Virus record (IMG/VR): IMGVR_UViG_3300017743_000194
Location: 1 to 20,123 of that record
Strand: one strand, 5' to 3'
Source of the DNA: a virus
DNA length: 20,123 bases
This document shows, one piece after another, positions 10,495-18,231 of this stretch (positions within the stretch are counted from its first letter, which is position 1; each line of letters begins with the position of its first letter). The notes under the pieces were generated by a model. It had not been told where the DNA came from. It saw only the letters and a list, made by a program, of their open reading frames with translations, and did not search any database. The translations under genes and the position numbers were made by a program.

Positions 10495-10748
10495 TGTCCG
10501 ATGGAGTGTCCGGCATCGGCAACATGCCATTCAATGTACAAAGCGACATCCACCAACTTAGTCGCGCAAGAGAACGCATCGAAAGCCATTTTGAAAAACA
10601 AACAATAGAAAAAGAACATCGGCGAGTTCACTCCGCCGAAGACGCGGCACAGATACGCACCGAAACAAACAATTATCGATATGACCGATTTCTCCGCCAA
10701 CAGGAGAAAATTCAAGAAGGCATACACGTTAATTTTGAGGTGAAGTAA
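10494..10748 (+). CDS. Small charged hypothetical protein
   Basis: The 84-residue protein starts at ATG 10494, overlapping the previous stop as TAATG, and its own stop overlaps the next start in the same way. This supports it as a real, translationally coupled gene. It is hydrophilic, with many Glu, Arg, His and Gln residues. A predicted long helix covers about residues 20-75 (LSRARERIESHFEKQ, IEKEHRRVHSAEDAAQIRTE). The first 15 residues are Gly- and Ser-rich. There is no membrane segment and no motif I recognise. Because it lies between a tail-anchored membrane protein and an EF-hand membrane protein, it may be a soluble partner of one of them. Confidence 0.6.
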   Translation: MSDGVSGIGNMPFNVQSDIHQLSRARERIESHFEKQTIEKEHRRVHSAEDAAQIRTETNNYRYDRFLRQQEKIQEGIHVNFEVK

Positions 10749-11086
10749 TGAACCCCCCAAAGCAGTTACAGCAAGATAGCCAGTACAACGGCATGGATCT
10801 GGACGGCGATGGAGTTGTCACAGACGATGAACTCCGCATGTCAGAAAAGATGATGCAGATCGAAAATCACGACCGGATGCAAGATCAGCAACGCCTGATG
10901 GCATGGGTCGCAATGTTAAGCACCATAGGGGCCGTTGTGGTGCTTCTCACGCCTCTCATAGGGCTAGACAGGATGGCAGCGGCTTCCGCGTTCCTAAACA
11001 CCTTCCTAGTGGCTCAGACAGGCGTTGTGGGCGGCTTTATGGCGTCCTCAGTCCTCTCCAAGCGGTCATCTGACAAAGGAGCTTAA
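10748..11086 (+). CDS. EF-hand-containing two-helix membrane protein (holin-like candidate)
   Basis: The 112-residue protein starts at ATG 10748 (TAATG overlap). Residues 17-28 form a textbook 12-residue EF-hand loop, D-L-D-G-D-G-V-V-T-D-D-E, with Asp or Thr at all side-chain ligand positions and the invariant Gly and final Glu. A charged helix with several Met and Gln residues follows (31-50). Two hydrophobic segments come next (about 51-72 and 78-104) with LLTPLIGLDR between them, then a short basic tail. One EF loop plus two membrane helices suggests a small membrane protein that may respond to divalent cations. Position just before the 3TM holin-like gene suggests a lysis role (second holin, antiholin or regulator). 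This is inference, and metal binding is not shown. Confidence 0.7.
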   Translation: MNPPKQLQQDSQYNGMDLDGDGVVTDDELRMSEKMMQIENHDRMQDQQRLMAWVAMLSTIGAVVVLLTPLIGLDRMAAASAFLNTFLVAQTGVVGGFMASSVLSKRSSDKGA

Positions 11087-11087
11087 A

Positions 11088-11549
11088 ATGCTCACTATCC
11101 TCGGTAGCGCCCTGGGCTTTGCGACAAGCATTGTCCCAGAAATTCTTTCGTTCTTCAAACAAGCGCAGAAGAACAAGCAAGACCTCAAAATGCTAGAGGC
11201 AAAAGCGAAATACGCTACTCACCTATCTGAGTTGAAAATCGACGAACTTAACGTCCAGGCTGACATCAGCGAAATGCAGGGCATCCACCAAATGCAAACC
11301 GCCGCAAACGCAAACAGCAAATTTGCAGCCGCTCTTAGTGGGTCGGTTAGACCCATTATCGCATACAGCTTTATGCTTCTGTTTCTGGCCATAAAAGGTC
11401 TAGCGGCTTGGCAAGTCTACGGTGATGTAGGCCTAAACTGGTCGCAGATGATGACCGTGGTTTGGGATCAAGAAACCCAAATTTTGTGGTCGGCAATCAT
11501 CAGCTTCTATTTCGGCCATCGCGCCATGCAGAAAATAAGGACAACGTAA
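11088..11549 (+). CDS. 3TM-type (GTA-like) holin candidate
   Basis: The 153-residue protein starts at ATG 11088, two bases after the previous stop, with AAAGGAG as binding site at 11075-11081. An in-frame ATG at 11025 lies inside the upstream gene. Residues 1-23 are hydrophobic and amphipathic, and residues 24-75 are a charged coiled region (KMLEAKAKYATHLSELKIDEL). SVRPIIAYSFMLLFLAIKG (about 86-108) and QILWSAIISFYFGHRAMQK (about 131-149) are two further membrane segments. The RP before a helix, a Trp/Asp link and a closing FYFG.RAM.K motif match the GTA_holin_3TM family (PF11351). A holin would form lesions that release the endolysin encoded two genes downstream. The stop overlaps the next start as TAATG. 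Confidence 0.75.
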   Translation: MLTILGSALGFATSIVPEILSFFKQAQKNKQDLKMLEAKAKYATHLSELKIDELNVQADISEMQGIHQMQTAANANSKFAAALSGSVRPIIAYSFMLLFLAIKGLAAWQVYGDVGLNWSQMMTVVWDQETQILWSAIISFYFGHRAMQKIRTT

Positions 11550-12865: not shown

Positions 12866-13059
12866 ATTTCTTAGCCATCGCGTGGGTCTGTGCATCCCCG
12901 ATGATAACGAGTTGTGAGTTAATGGTAGTGCAGACACCCTTCCCCACATACAAAGCTTGTGAAGAGAAACTTGCCCGTTTAAAGCCCGTTTTGGATGAAC
13001 GTAAAAAGATCTATTCCCTCTTTTGCTACCCGATAAAAACCGCAAAAATTGCTTTGTAA
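12862..13059 (+). CDS. Small exported or lipoprotein-like protein (o-spanin-like candidate)
   Basis: The 65-residue protein is read from GTG 12862, overlapping the previous stop as GTGA. A longer frame from 12799 would lie almost wholly within the upstream gene. The N-terminus is hydrophobic (NFLAIAWVCASPMITSC), and ITSC resembles a lipobox with Cys at residue 18, although there is no positive charge before the hydrophobic part. The remainder has a TYKACEEKLARLKPVLDERKK helix and a further CYP. The protein may be exported and either lipidated or disulfide-linked. It is the last gene of the rightward late operon. An outer-membrane spanin is possible, but so is an unrelated secreted peptide. 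Confidence 0.55.
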   Translation: MNFLAIAWVCASPMITSCELMVVQTPFPTYKACEEKLARLKPVLDERKKIYSLFCYPIKTAKIAL

Positions 13060-13080
13060 GTTGGGGGAAGGATTTTTAAG

Positions 13081-13100
13081 TATTTGGTATTATTTGGTAT
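13081..13100 (+). repeat. Tandem 10-bp repeat TATTTGGTAT x2
   Basis: Two exact copies of TATTTGGTAT stand head to tail between the first and second arm-type repeats of the putative attP. The inner ATTTGGTAT also occurs on the minus strand at 17014-17022, upstream of another leftward gene. It could be an accessory site for excisionase or another DNA-bending protein. Confidence 0.5.
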
Positions 13101-13149
13101 TTTTTAAAAAGTTGGGGGATCTAAGTCATTGTTTTTAAACATTTTATCT

Positions 13150-13168
13150 AGTCCCTCCGGGCCTACCA
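13150..13168 (+). other. attP core candidate matching a tRNA 3' end
   Basis: The bases AGTCCCTCCGGGCCTACCA can be read as the end of a tRNA gene. AGT gives T-loop positions 58-60 with the invariant A58. CCCTC is the 3' half of the T stem starting with the invariant C61. CGGGCCT is the acceptor 3' strand, A is the discriminator, and the encoded CCA closes it. No other part of a tRNA is present, as expected when a phage carries only the crossover segment that restores the host tRNA. The identity of the tRNA is uncertain; the end is somewhat like that of tRNA-Ile. Confidence 0.68.
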
Positions 13169-13246
13169 ACCCCCTATTTTTTCCTTTATTTTCAATGACT
13201 TAATTTTAGTTGGGGGAAAGTTGGGGGAACTCCACTTTAAGTTGCG

Positions 13247-14296
13247 TTAATCCCAACCCAACAACTGCATCGATGATTCCACCAATTTTTCACGCTCTAC
13301 GTTCTTCGTATATGTGTGAACTTCACCAGTTCCATTGTGTGCTAACCAAGCAGCAATCATCTGATCAGTGGCTCCAAGATGAGCCAGTTTCACCGCCATC
13401 GCTGATCTAAGACCATGCGTTGTGCAGTGTGGAATGCCAGCCTTAGTCGCCCACTTCTTAAACTTATTTCCAAACCCGTCCGACATGTACGCTTTTCCGT
13501 ACATGGTGATCAAAAATGTGTCCTGATCTCTGGGAATATCTTGCAATTCTTCCATCAAGAAATTCGGTATACGCGATGCTTTTGACTCATCTGTTTTTTG
13601 ACGATCAAAGTAAATTTTATTGTTTTTCACATTGCCCCAACCCAGCTTAACAACATCTGATCTGGCTGCCCCAGTACACATCATTAAATACAGCGCAAGT
13701 CGCGCCTCAGATCCAGCCTGATGACAGGCTTCAAATGCTTCAACCTCTTCTCGCGTCCAAGTGTGAAATCCACTGGAATTTACGTTTCTTTTCTTTGTTA
13801 ATTTTGCAGGATTTTTGCTCTGTGGAATCCACTCTAACGCTTGAGCAAAGTTGAACAATACACTTAGTTCTTTTCTGACCTTATTTGCTTCTGACGGAGC
13901 CGACTTTTTATTCATCAAAGCATCACAATGTGCTTTGTTCATATCTTCCACGCTGTGCGGCCCGACATAGCTTACAATGAACTGCATAACGCGAGATTTA
14001 AGGTCGCGAGTTTTAGGGGCCAAATCTCTAAATTCCGGTGATGCTTTATATAAATTTATTAATTCATCAAAACTCTTTTTTTTCTTTTGGGCTTTTACTC
14101 CAATGCCAAGAAATCTGTTATATTCTAATAAAAATGCCTCTGTCCCAGGTGCGCTTCGAAAATACTGCTTTTTGTCTTTCTTTTTCCGCTGAAAATAAAA
14201 ATACTTGTAACCCTTAGAAAAATTGCAAGAAACGTATTTAAATGGGCGTTCCCTCAAAGAGGAAATCAAGGCTGTTGGTCTTATCAGATGCTTCAT
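13247..14296 (-). CDS. int: Tyrosine-recombinase integrase
   Basis: The 349-residue enzyme would integrate and, with a helper, excise the phage by strand exchange at the att site next to its 3' end. The N-terminal part (RPFKYVSCNFSKGYKYFYFQR, then SAPGTEAFLLEYNRFL) and a SAM-like core-binding region (about 75-165) precede the catalytic domain (about 177-349). All catalytic residues are visible: R212 in CTGAARSD, K234 in RQKTD, H294 and R297 in THGLR, H320 in WLAHNG and nucleophile Y329 in VHTYTKN. The start ATG 14296 overlaps the upstream excisionase-like gene by 59 bases and has only a weak GGA upstream. A TTG just before RERPFKY is an alternative that would still overlap that gene. It is the last gene of the leftward operon. 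Confidence 0.95.
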   Translation of the reverse strand: MKHLIRPTALISSLRERPFKYVSCNFSKGYKYFYFQRKKKDKKQYFRSAPGTEAFLLEYNRFLGIGVKAQKKKKSFDELINLYKASPEFRDLAPKTRDLKSRVMQFIVSYVGPHSVEDMNKAHCDALMNKKSAPSEANKVRKELSVLFNFAQALEWIPQSKNPAKLTKKRNVNSSGFHTWTREEVEAFEACHQAGSEARLALYLMMCTGAARSDVVKLGWGNVKNNKIYFDRQKTDESKASRIPNFLMEELQDIPRDQDTFLITMYGKAYMSDGFGNKFKKWATKAGIPHCTTHGLRSAMAVKLAHLGATDQMIAAWLAHNGTGEVHTYTKNVEREKLVESSMQLLGWD

Positions 14297-14495
14297 TTGG
14301 TAGATCCATAAGTGCAGCGGTCAATTCATCTTTGACCCAGATTTTTGTGTGTTCAGTCAAGCATCTTGGCGATGGTAAAGTACCTACACTTACTAGCTCT
14401 TCAAATGTAGGAACAGAAACCCCACAGAACATCGCAGCGTCCGATTTCCGCAAAGCCATCGGCTCAACTAACGATTTTCTGAGGGTTTTTGCCAT
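14238..14495 (-). CDS. AlpA/MerR-type helix-turn-helix protein, excisionase candidate
   Basis: The 85-residue protein has one small winged or MerR-like DNA-binding domain over residues about 13-62. MALRKSDAAMFCGVSVPTFEELVSVG is the helix-turn-helix, and TKIWVKDELTAAL follows the usual 'wi..W....l..al' wing. Such proteins commonly stand directly upstream of integrases in alphaproteobacterial prophages and act as excisionases or directionality factors. Its 3' end overlaps the integrase start by 59 bases, which strongly suggests coupled expression. The usual tail acidic stretch is present. ATG 14495 has AAAGG (about 12 bases upstream) as a modest binding site. A purely regulatory role is the alternative. 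Confidence 0.75.
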   Translation of the reverse strand: MAKTLRKSLVEPMALRKSDAAMFCGVSVPTFEELVSVGTLPSPRCLTEHTKIWVKDELTAALMDLPNEASDKTNSLDFLFEGTPI

Positions 14496-14549: not shown

Positions 14550-16460
14550 CTACAAAATCTCACAGGTGCCGCCTGTGCAAGCAAGCTCTTGAGATGACGT
14601 TGTAGTGTCTTCGATTTCAAACTCAGGAAGTCTCGACCAATTCACGGCAGCGGGAAACTTAGCGTCAAGCGCCTCATACTCCTCGCGAGTGATTTGCTCA
14701 TTGGGCGCTTGGACATAAAGATGATCATCGTAGGGCAAGAACGATACGCCCGCGATTTCATCGAAGTGACTGTAAACGAACTCAGCCAGATCATCCCACT
14801 CATCGCCCTTAACAGATATCGTGGCGCTGACCTTATGCATCGTCCAATGCCGCTGATATGTAAGCCACATTTCCATTTGCTCAATCGCTGTGCGAGTGCC
14901 GTTAGTGATAGCCCCAGCCGGAGCCGCAATCGGAAACGAAAACACTGTCTCCAGGTCAGGCTTGGACGCTGATGGTTCCGATGGCACCCCCTCATCGATC
15001 ATAAGCTGCGTCAGAGGATCTGTATTAGATTGAACGGTGCGCCGAATGTAGTGATCTGACCATCGAGCATGGATGCCAGAAGCCGTCCCGGTTAGCGCAC
15101 TAACAGAGCCGCTTGGCTTAACGCAAGTGACAGAGGCCGAAGGCTGAATGCCAATTTTCTCAGCCCATTTCTTATTCGTCGCGATAGCGTGATCCCGTAG
15201 CTCTTCTAAGCGCTCTGGAAGGCCCGTGAGAACGCCATTGGTCAGCGGGTTGTCCATGATGCCCGTCATGCTTACGCCCAACAGGCGCTCCTCATCGCAG
15301 TTCGCAGCCCACTCCGTAGGGAGTGATGGGAAATAAGTGAAAGTGGACTGTACAGTCCCAATTATTGTGGCAAGTTCGACTTTGCGCTTGAGGTCATTAA
15401 AATCATCGTCTTCCCGAATGATAATTTCCGATAAGTTGCAAAACTGCCCTGTCGGCAAAAGCAGAATTTCAGAACACGGGTTGCAGCCAAAATCGGCAAC
15501 TTTCCGGTCAAACTTTTCAGCCTGGGCTTTTGCACTTGCTCGGTTGAAAATACCGCGCTCGCCGGACTTGCCATCTACCATCGCGTTCCACTCAGCGTCG
15601 AAATCTTCCTTGCTTGGAGTGCCGTCTGTCACATAAGAATTGTTCGCGTAATATCGCTCCTTTGGGAACTGACCCAACGCCCAGTTTTTTGCGTTACGCA
15701 TTTCAACATCATCGATATCGCCGAGCGAAATCATTGCAGATCTGCGAACACCACCGCTGACAATACAACTCGCAATCACGCACATAACGTCATGGCACTC
15801 CAAAGACGTTAGCTGCCGGCCACTCGCCTTGATGAAGAGATCGTTGATGTACTCAAGTGTTTTGCGAAGAGGCTCTGGGCCGCTTGAACGCCCACCAAAG
15901 GTTTTAAGCAACGCTCCTTCTGGACGCAGAAGTGATAGGTCGTAATGATATAGACGGCCCTCAAAGCCTTCTTCCATCGCGTTCTGAACGGCGCTTTGCC
16001 ACCCTTCCCGGCTGTCCTCTACAACATAGTCATCTTTCTGTGCTGTCATGCTGTCGGAAACAACGGGAAGTTGGCTGATATACTGCTTCTCAACAGAATA
16101 ACCCATCCCGGTGCCGCTTGAGAGAATAAACAGCGCATCGGAAAAATCACGGGGGCGCGTAATGGCCTTGTATGCGCAATTATATCCACACACATTGTCA
16201 CGATCCAGCGCAGGGCCAGCCGTTGTCAGCATACGCATTGATGGCACAACGTCCATCATGGTAATCGACTTTGCAATAGTCTGAGACATCTCTTCGCTCA
16301 AGAAACGATCAAGAACATTTTCTTTATATCTTAGCACGGTTTCCGGCCAAGTTTCCCGGCGCTGTTCATCGTGCAGAAATTTCGCGTACTTAGAAACGTA
16401 AACGTACTCTTCCAAAGCCACTTTTGCCGACTTTGAGTTCAACTGCCTCATCATATTCAT
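14550..16460 (-). CDS. Class II (adenosylcobalamin-dependent) ribonucleoside-triphosphate reductase, monomeric type
   Basis: The 636-residue enzyme reduces ribonucleotides to deoxyribonucleotides using adenosylcobalamin to make the radical. It matches the monomeric RTPR family. C95 (NCAY) and C341 (QFCNLSE) form the redox pair, and NPCSE (N327, C329, E331) carries the radical cysteine and proton-transfer residues. TCVKPSGSVSALTG (445-458) is the substrate loop, and C628-x4-C633 at the C-terminus is the rereduction pair. All expected catalytic residues are present, so it should be active. It is about 100 residues shorter than the Lactobacillus enzyme, as is common in phage versions. ATG 16460 follows AGGGG about 10 bases upstream, where GTAG and CTAC could pair across it. 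It sits in the leftward operon between a DUF3310 gene and the excisionase candidate. No intein or nrdB-like gene is seen. Confidence 0.94.
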   Translation of the reverse strand: MNMMRQLNSKSAKVALEEYVYVSKYAKFLHDEQRRETWPETVLRYKENVLDRFLSEEMSQTIAKSITMMDVVPSMRMLTTAGPALDRDNVCGYNCAYKAITRPRDFSDALFILSSGTGMGYSVEKQYISQLPVVSDSMTAQKDDYVVEDSREGWQSAVQNAMEEGFEGRLYHYDLSLLRPEGALLKTFGGRSSGPEPLRKTLEYINDLFIKASGRQLTSLECHDVMCVIASCIVSGGVRRSAMISLGDIDDVEMRNAKNWALGQFPKERYYANNSYVTDGTPSKEDFDAEWNAMVDGKSGERGIFNRASAKAQAEKFDRKVADFGCNPCSEILLLPTGQFCNLSEIIIREDDDFNDLKRKVELATIIGTVQSTFTYFPSLPTEWAANCDEERLLGVSMTGIMDNPLTNGVLTGLPERLEELRDHAIATNKKWAEKIGIQPSASVTCVKPSGSVSALTGTASGIHARWSDHYIRRTVQSNTDPLTQLMIDEGVPSEPSASKPDLETVFSFPIAAPAGAITNGTRTAIEQMEMWLTYQRHWTMHKVSATISVKGDEWDDLAEFVYSHFDEIAGVSFLPYDDHLYVQAPNEQITREEYEALDAKFPAAVNWSRLPEFEIEDTTTSSQELACTGGTCEIL

Positions 16461-17086: not shown

Positions 17087-17578
17087 TTACTGGGCTTCGA
17101 GTCCCATTATTTCATCTACGACTGCACACTTATTGAACTTTTCAGTCACGTTGGTTCGCTTCGCGCATTTAAACACATAAACCGTAAACTCAAGATAGGA
17201 ATCAATCATTTCTTGAGATGCATGGTAACAAATCACCATTCGGTTTTGGTCGTTCCTAGCTTTATTTGTGTAGACTAGCTTGGACTTCATTAGATTTTTT
17301 AAGATGTACAAGGCCGCCGATCTGCTTACTCCGATAGACTCTATAAAATAGGTCAGAAAAACCCCAGCGCCTCTCAAGCCGTGTTCTTGAAGAGCGTGAA
17401 TCATCCAACGATGATTATCGCTCTTCTTACTAATCTTTCGGGTTTGATCATCGATCAATCGATCAATGTCCGATGCATCGTTCTTGTAATAAAGTGTTTC
17501 TAGGTTGCTTATTGCCAAAGCATACTCTTTGATGACCTTTGTCCGTAGAATTTCGCAGCCATGTGACTCATCTTTCAT
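17087..17578 (-). CDS. Winged-helix (MarR-like) transcriptional regulator candidate
   Basis: In the 163-residue protein, residues about 58-135 look like a winged helix. HALQEHGLRGAGVFLTYFIESIGVSRSAALYILKNLMKSKLV fits 'helix, GVSRSAA recognition helix', followed by a beta hairpin (YTNKARNDQNRMVICYHASQ) and another helix. Residues 1-55 are charged and helical, possibly for dimer contact. The C-terminus carries two Cys residues (138 and 150). ATG 17578 follows AGGAAG. It stands 14 bases downstream of the repressor gene and is almost certainly co-transcribed with it, so it may be a second lysogeny regulator. MarR-like is by shape only; no ligand site can be read. Confidence 0.65.
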   Translation of the reverse strand: MKDESHGCEILRTKVIKEYALAISNLETLYYKNDASDIDRLIDDQTRKISKKSDNHRWMIHALQEHGLRGAGVFLTYFIESIGVSRSAALYILKNLMKSKLVYTNKARNDQNRMVICYHASQEMIDSYLEFTVYVFKCAKRTNVTEKFNKCAVVDEIMGLEAQ

Positions 17579-17592
17579 CTTACTTCCTTTTT

Positions 17593-18231
17593 TTATTTTA
17601 AGTTTATAGTGACGATTGGATAAACAGCGCTTGGATCAACCTCAAAGGACTCACCAACCCAAGGCTTGCATTTTATAGAGGTTTCCGAAAAGCCCTCAAT
17701 CTGAGAAATAGTGTAGTTGTCACCACGATCTGCAACTACCAGCCCACCCTTGGAAAGCGGTGCTTTGGATGAGCAAAAGCACACAGTGCCCGCGCCAAGC
17801 CAAGGAGCTACTTCTTCTAGACTGTCAGGCACAACCGGGATGGTCACCGCAAAAGCTGATGGGTCGTCCCAGATGGATGAGGGGCAAGCAATAAAAGAAG
17901 CTGTTTGTTCTTTTGGAATACCCAGACCCGATGATTTGAATAGCTGAATAGATCTATTCGTGAATACGTTTGGGTCATTAGCGCCGGGCTTACTGACAAC
18001 TGAGCTAATCCGAGCTTCTTGATCAATCTCTTGGCCATTCGCCAGTTCATGCGGGTCTACCCGCAACGCTTCAGCCGCTCTGACTAAAAAATATTGTTTT
18101 AGCCGCCGCTGCCCTTTTTCAACTTTTTCGATTGAACTTTGTGAAACGCCCATCATTTGAGACAGTGTCTCAAGAGTGTGCCCTTGCGCTCTCCGTATGT
18201 CACGGATCTTATTTTTAACTTCGATAGACAT
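17593..18231 (-). CDS. CI-like phage repressor (XRE HTH plus S24-like domain without the catalytic Lys)
   Basis: The 212-residue protein is the likely lysogeny repressor. Residues 9-62 are an XRE helix-turn-helix (RDIRRAQGHTLETLSQMMGVSQSSIEKVEKGQRR). Residues about 124-212 resemble the LexA/S24 C-terminal fold: AFAVTIPVVPDSLEEVAPWLGAGTVCF corresponds to the 'v.GdSMeP.l..Gd' strand, with S137 at the serine position. KGGLVVADRGDNYTISQIEG corresponds to the strand that normally bears the catalytic lysine, but I find no Lys there. The domain may thus serve dimerisation rather than SOS self-cleavage. ATG 18231 follows GGGG in a purine-rich leader. The tandem TTGTTAAC sites 31 bases upstream are the natural operator candidate. 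A winged-helix gene follows in the same operon. Confidence 0.82.
   Translation of the reverse strand: MSIEVKNKIRDIRRAQGHTLETLSQMMGVSQSSIEKVEKGQRRLKQYFLVRAAEALRVDPHELANGQEIDQEARISSVVSKPGANDPNVFTNRSIQLFKSSGLGIPKEQTASFIACPSSIWDDPSAFAVTIPVVPDSLEEVAPWLGAGTVCFCSSKAPLSKGGLVVADRGDNYTISQIEGFSETSIKCKPWVGESFEVDPSAVYPIVTINLK

Follow-up and report, generated by a model that had tools for sequence, protein, structure and literature searches.

The locus considered here raises the question of whether, and where, a virus represented by a 20,123-nt stretch of DNA (the window, analysed over its whole length) would insert into a bacterial chromosome. Next to the 3' end of a tyrosine integrase gene lies the 19-mer AGTCCCTCCGGGCCTACCA, which had been proposed from the sequence to be an attP core formed by the 3' end of a tRNA gene. 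Our analysis makes it very probable that a temperate tailed phage has its attP here, and that its integrase would recombine this core with the identical 3' end of a host tRNA gene bearing a CAT anticodon, probably tRNA-Ile2.

Identity of the core and of the probable target tRNA gene

The 19-mer occupies a single position, with no second site in the window even when three mismatches are allowed:

13150..13168, + strand: probable attP core, from T-loop A58 to the CCA of a CAT-anticodon tRNA gene, probably tRNA-Ile2 (sequence identity, ARAGORN loci, E. coli matches)

It equals exactly positions 58-76, the 3' end, of an alphaproteobacterial CAT-anticodon tRNA gene, and fits the cloverleaf throughout (A58-G-T-C61...C65, the acceptor 3' strand CGGGCCT, A73 and CCA). 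ARAGORN found no tRNA in the whole window and the rest of the tRNA is absent from it, so that the initial annotation was right in describing an exact tRNA end with its body missing. When the window was compared with 38 distinct 19-mers from tRNA 3' ends of fetched loci, allowing up to three mismatches, only AGTCCCTCCGGGCCTACCA was present, and without mismatch. The block of identity begins at A58, since base 57 differs (T in the window, G or A in the tRNAs); phage sequence follows directly after the CCA. The crossover class is thus the 3'-end type, with identity lying 3' of the T-loop centre, and a T-loop crossover was rejected on account of the mismatch at position 57.

Exact scans found the 19-mer at least 119 times in genome contigs and 63 times among viral ones. 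Among the matches listed, 116 genome and 37 viral copies lay inside a tRNA gene placed by ARAGORN, all 153 with a CAT anticodon, which bears out the expectation that bacterial tRNA genes ending in this sequence would be found. ARAGORN labels every CAT tRNA as Met; both genomes checked (L188 and L189) also encode a Met-like CAT tRNA whose acceptor stem differs, and the best E. coli matches to the 19-mer-bearing tRNA are annotated as tRNA-Ile. Since separate Met-like CAT tRNAs coexist with it and the E. coli matches are tRNA-Ile, the target is named, by homology, as probably the AUA-reading tRNA-Ile2, and elongator tRNA-Met was rejected on the same two grounds. The acceptor 5' strand had been predicted as AGGCCCG or close to it: that strand was found exactly in four genomes of 1.3-1.4 Mb (L071, L280-L282; 30-33% GC around the gene), while most other carriers have GGGCCTG or GGGCCCG, pairing with the 3' strand via G.U wobbles.

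The same gene is matched in another manner by 11 viral contigs (L126, L129, L135, L137, L139, L155, L159, L161, L166, L169 and L177), in which a longer identity of about 40 bp runs from the anticodon stem onwards, with a TAA..CATTGA-like motif in front of it. They have the appearance of attPs belonging to a second type of integrase.

Integrase gene and probable attP arms

The genes relevant to integration and lysogeny all lie to the right of the core:

13247..14296, - strand: tyrosine integrase, 349 aa (PF00589, 9e-12; phrog_1, 9e-34)
14238..14495, - strand: possible excisionase or small regulator, 85 aa, overlapping the integrase start (weak phrog_66 match, E 3e-4)
17593..18231, - strand: CI-like repressor, HTH_3 (Pfam and PHROG matches)

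The integrase carries the catalytic set R-K-HxxR-H-Y in conserved alignment columns (R212, K234, H294-x-x-R297, H320 and Y329), and its stop codon starts 78 bp past the core, in agreement with the distance of about 80 bases first reported. Together with the weak excisionase match and the CI-like repressor, it is consistent with a temperate phage. Two further genes were recorded in this part of the window, both on the minus strand: a 163-aa ORF beside the repressor (17087-17578) with neither a Pfam nor a PHROG match, and a 636-aa ribonucleotide reductase (14550-16460), about 50-52% identical to the enzymes of Roseobacter and Lentibacter phages, with a weak Pfam match.

On both sides of the core, the following elements were located:

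13059..13069, + strand: presumed integrase arm-type site, P arm, AGTTGGGGGAA (GTTGGGGGA repeat)
13110..13120, + strand: presumed arm-type site, P arm, AGTTGGGGGAT (GTTGGGGGA repeat)
13122..13134, - strand: IHF-like site, P arm, half of the inverted repeat TAAGTCATTG/CAATGACTTA, one mismatch to WATCAANNNNTTR
13169..13200, + strand: P' stretch beside the core, visibly similar to L143 and L138 in an alignment (ACCCC...TTTTCCTTT.TTTTC)
13190..13202, + strand: IHF-like site, P' arm, other half of the inverted repeat TAAGTCATTG/CAATGACTTA, one mismatch to WATCAANNNNTTR
13208..13218, + strand: presumed arm-type site, P' arm, AGTTGGGGGAA (GTTGGGGGA repeat; repeats recur in the P' arms of relatives)
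13219..13229, + strand: presumed arm-type site, P' arm, AGTTGGGGGAA (GTTGGGGGA repeat; repeats recur in the P' arms of relatives)

The window holds four exact copies of GTTGGGGGA, all within a stretch of about 170 bp (13060-13228) and two on each side of the core. In the P' arms of the integrase family, direct or inverted repeats of at least 8 nt were found in 19 of 28 cases (shuffle mean 4.5, maximum 9), with sequences that differ from those of the window. As GTTGGGGGA is unlike the relatives' repeats (GTTTGACAC, GGTTTACA and similar), its own role is only inferred, and the four AGTTGGGGGA repeats are presumed to be integrase arm sites. The first 30 bases after the core are the part that aligns with L143 and L138.

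The 10-bp inverted repeat TAAGTCATTG/CAATGACTTA brackets the core, each half falling within a one-mismatch match to the IHF consensus WATCAANNNNTTR, and the pair is presumed to represent IHF sites. Over the window as a whole, matches of this kind show no enrichment (33 against 27 expected); in the arms of the family they are enriched, occurring in 13 of 28 P' arms (shuffle mean 2.8, maximum 7) and in all five P arms (shuffle mean 0.45, maximum 2), the latter being five sequences of which two are near-identical and one is the window itself.

The identity of the core, the integrase family, the geometry and the repeats can be read from the letters of the window; recombination by this phage, the roles of the arm and IHF-like sites and the host group are inferences. 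The integrase (13247-14296, minus strand) would recombine the core with the identical 3' end of the host CAT-anticodon tRNA gene; the phage copy of the core would restore the tRNA end at the integrase-side junction (attL), and the displaced host copy would mark the opposite junction (attR). The AGTTGGGGGA arm sites and the TAAGTCATTG/CAATGACTTA IHF sites may together build a lambda-like intasome. The arm repeat GTTGGGGG is present also in the variable loop and T-stem of the target tRNA gene (GGTTGGGGGTTC), just upstream of the core. That the arm domain of the integrase reads the host tRNA gene itself through this sequence is improbable; coincidence is likelier, because the arm repeats of relatives at this tRNA are of unrelated sequence.

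Related junctions and integrated elements

Loci were retrieved by the 19-mer alone and then tested for integrase homologues using tblastn and HMM searches. With the window included, 28 distinct junctions in the orientation of the window carried a homologous tyrosine integrase, L192 alone having been retrieved via its integrase. The integrase 3' end points toward the core, and in the tblastn list, one distant match excepted, 81-124 bp separate the core from the matched end of the integrase. Most junctions of the HMM set are attL-like, with the tRNA followed by the integrase, and five are attP-like, without a tRNA body, as in the window; L122, L125 and L182 display this short-core form. In two viral contigs, L132 and L173, the 19-mer is reversed with respect to a related integrase, which means that the family does not have one invariable attP geometry.

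Integrase homologues were also retrieved by protein from Rhodobacterales genomes, and 26 of 30 had a tRNA 3' end 78-133 bp away, the tRNAs being Glu(ttc), Lys(ttt), Arg(cct), Ser(gct), Arg(acg), Arg(tct) and one CAT. These wider integrase relatives mostly adjoin tRNA genes other than the CAT one (Glu, Lys, Arg, Ser), again at the 3' end. The family targets tRNA 3' ends in general, and the phage of the window would use the CAT one. The nearest integrases are about 36-40% identical over the matched stretch. The integrase search of viral contigs confirmed no relative, several being brought in by the 19-mer scan of viral contigs.

Two genomes contain inserted elements bounded by copies of the core. 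In Pseudovibrio exalbescens (L030/L265/L266), a single contig has cores at 163060 and 175371, a spacing of 12.3 kb. One of them makes up the end of the tRNA and looks towards the integrase, whereas the other is not preceded by a tRNA body; identity continues past the CCA to give a 27-bp direct repeat. In an Allorhizobium MAG (L003/L267/L268), 61 kb separate the two cores and the direct repeat measures 21 bp. Both repeats begin at A58, like the identity block of the window. These elements share with the window the tRNA, the 19-mer (at both element ends) and a related integrase, here 111-114 bp away, and differ from it in their arm repeats and in the integrase itself, which is about 30% identical. 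In relatives at the same tRNA, therefore, core copies flank the element and the tRNA is restored. A further locus, L270 (G398 contig 57), shows a second, non-tRNA core copy with arm-like repeats after it; as the genome has a tRNA-integrase junction as well, the copy is perhaps a second element. The proposal of an attP core is upheld by these data, in that bacterial tRNA genes carry the 19-mer end and homologous integrases adjoin it.

Alternatively, the 19-mer might be the last remnant of a decayed tRNA gene carried by the phage, with no part in integration. Complete CAT tRNA genes do occur in some viral contigs with the 19-mer, L131 and L148 among them, with no adjoining integrase homologue. 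This explanation is nevertheless very improbable, since the identity begins abruptly at A58 with no degraded 5' part, the 19-mer lies between repeats and next to an integrase, and this short core recurs in other phages, equally far from related integrases.

It is just as improbable that the locus is a prophage end, attR or attL, with one flank belonging to another element or to host DNA and no intact attP. The window is a 20-kb fragment, and no relative was found linking its left (tail/lysis) half to a homologue of its integrase; those retrieved by tail proteins stop before the attP region or have no integrase homologue. Against this, the tRNA body is absent upstream of the core, and the AGTTGGGGGA repeats are common to the P and P' arms, as expected of an intact attP and not of a chance junction. 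Since the sequence on either side of the core resembles phage DNA, the contig is read as the non-integrated form. An integrated copy of this phage was not found in the genomes or viral contigs scanned, nor was a close integrase relative, and megablast of the window against phage records gave no match.

Chance resemblance to a tRNA end would have nothing more than the shortness of the 19-mer in its favour and is practically negligible, given that none of 100 shuffled sequences matched, that any one given 19-mer (each tRNA end) is expected about 1.5e-7 times in the window, and that the same context recurs in relatives.

Two partial relatives were noted in the course of these searches. L238 (6300-12050) is related through tail protein J, in its C-terminal part (77%). 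It has lysis-like genes and then a DUF3310-like ORF and a ribonucleotide reductase on the minus strand, with neither an integrase homologue nor the core between them; the integration module seems absent from it. L221/L240 (IMGVR_UViG_3300034410_000580) matches the window ORFs 10748-11086 and 11025-11549 at 96-98% and ends short of attP.

Probable host group and comparison with known systems

The exact 19-mer was present in 92 of 293 sampled Rhodobacterales genomes, and, with GGTTCR in front, in 6 of 385 genomes sampled from the wider class (four of the six being 1.3-1.4 Mb genomes with the AGGCCCG start), two counts that are not strictly comparable, as the search patterns differed slightly and genome completeness was not given. 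Carriers comprise Rhodobacterales, Caulobacterales, some Rhizobiales, a sphingomonad and the streamlined 1.3-1.4 Mb lineage. The initial annotation had regarded the 19-mer as a direct way to the host: it does narrow the host to Alphaproteobacteria, but, being spread over several orders, the core alone fixes neither species nor group. The window has a GC content of 45.7%; its ribonucleotide reductase is closest to those of Roseobacter and Lentibacter phages (50-52%), and several best tail-protein matches are Roseobacter phages (25-27%). An endolysin search of the 293 Rhodobacterales genomes gave no match and is uninformative. Our best guess, a judgement we consider likely, is a marine member of the Rhodobacterales.

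An attP at a tRNA 3' end beside an integrase is a common and well-known arrangement, of which this locus is a sound, ordinary example, and the finding leaves accepted views unchanged. Its value lies in marking the phage as very probably temperate, predicting its insertion site and narrowing its host, and in delineating an alphaproteobacterial integrase family that holds the spacing between core and integrase 3' end at about 80-130 bp but changes the tRNA gene used. Thousands of islands with tRNA fragments are catalogued in Islander, with crossover classes at the anticodon, the T-loop and the T/acceptor junction (PMC4383910).

Integration at a CAT tRNA gene has already been published for a roseophage, the HMO-2011-type Roseobacter phage CRP-3, which integrates in tRNA-Met (CAT) of the RCA strain FZCC0040, as verified by sequencing and PCR (PMC6918029). 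CRP-3 resembles the phage of the window in its tyrosine integrase, in a core that overlaps a CAT-anticodon tRNA gene at its 3' end and in being a roseophage, a status that for the window is a best guess, whereas the two are of different phage types (PMC6918029). The first 3 kb of the CRP-3 genome contain neither the 19-mer nor any match of at least 11 nt to the Ile2 or Met tRNA, and do not establish that its core is the same. The best integrase match in the phage collection was Sinorhizobium phage phi2LM21 (31% identity). In phiLM21-like prophages of Sinorhizobium, tyrosine integrases likewise act in tRNA genes that are reconstructed, although the sites lie in tRNA-Lys, Ser, Leu and Pro genes (PMC12429752). 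KplE1, inserted at argW by IntS, likewise has the 3' end of a tRNA gene as its target and brings together arm and core sites for the integrase, IHF and an excisionase, the counterparts of which are predicted in the window; it differs in its tRNA and integrase, and its attL overlaps the integrase promoter, whereas in the window the integrase 3' end faces the core (PMC2951348).
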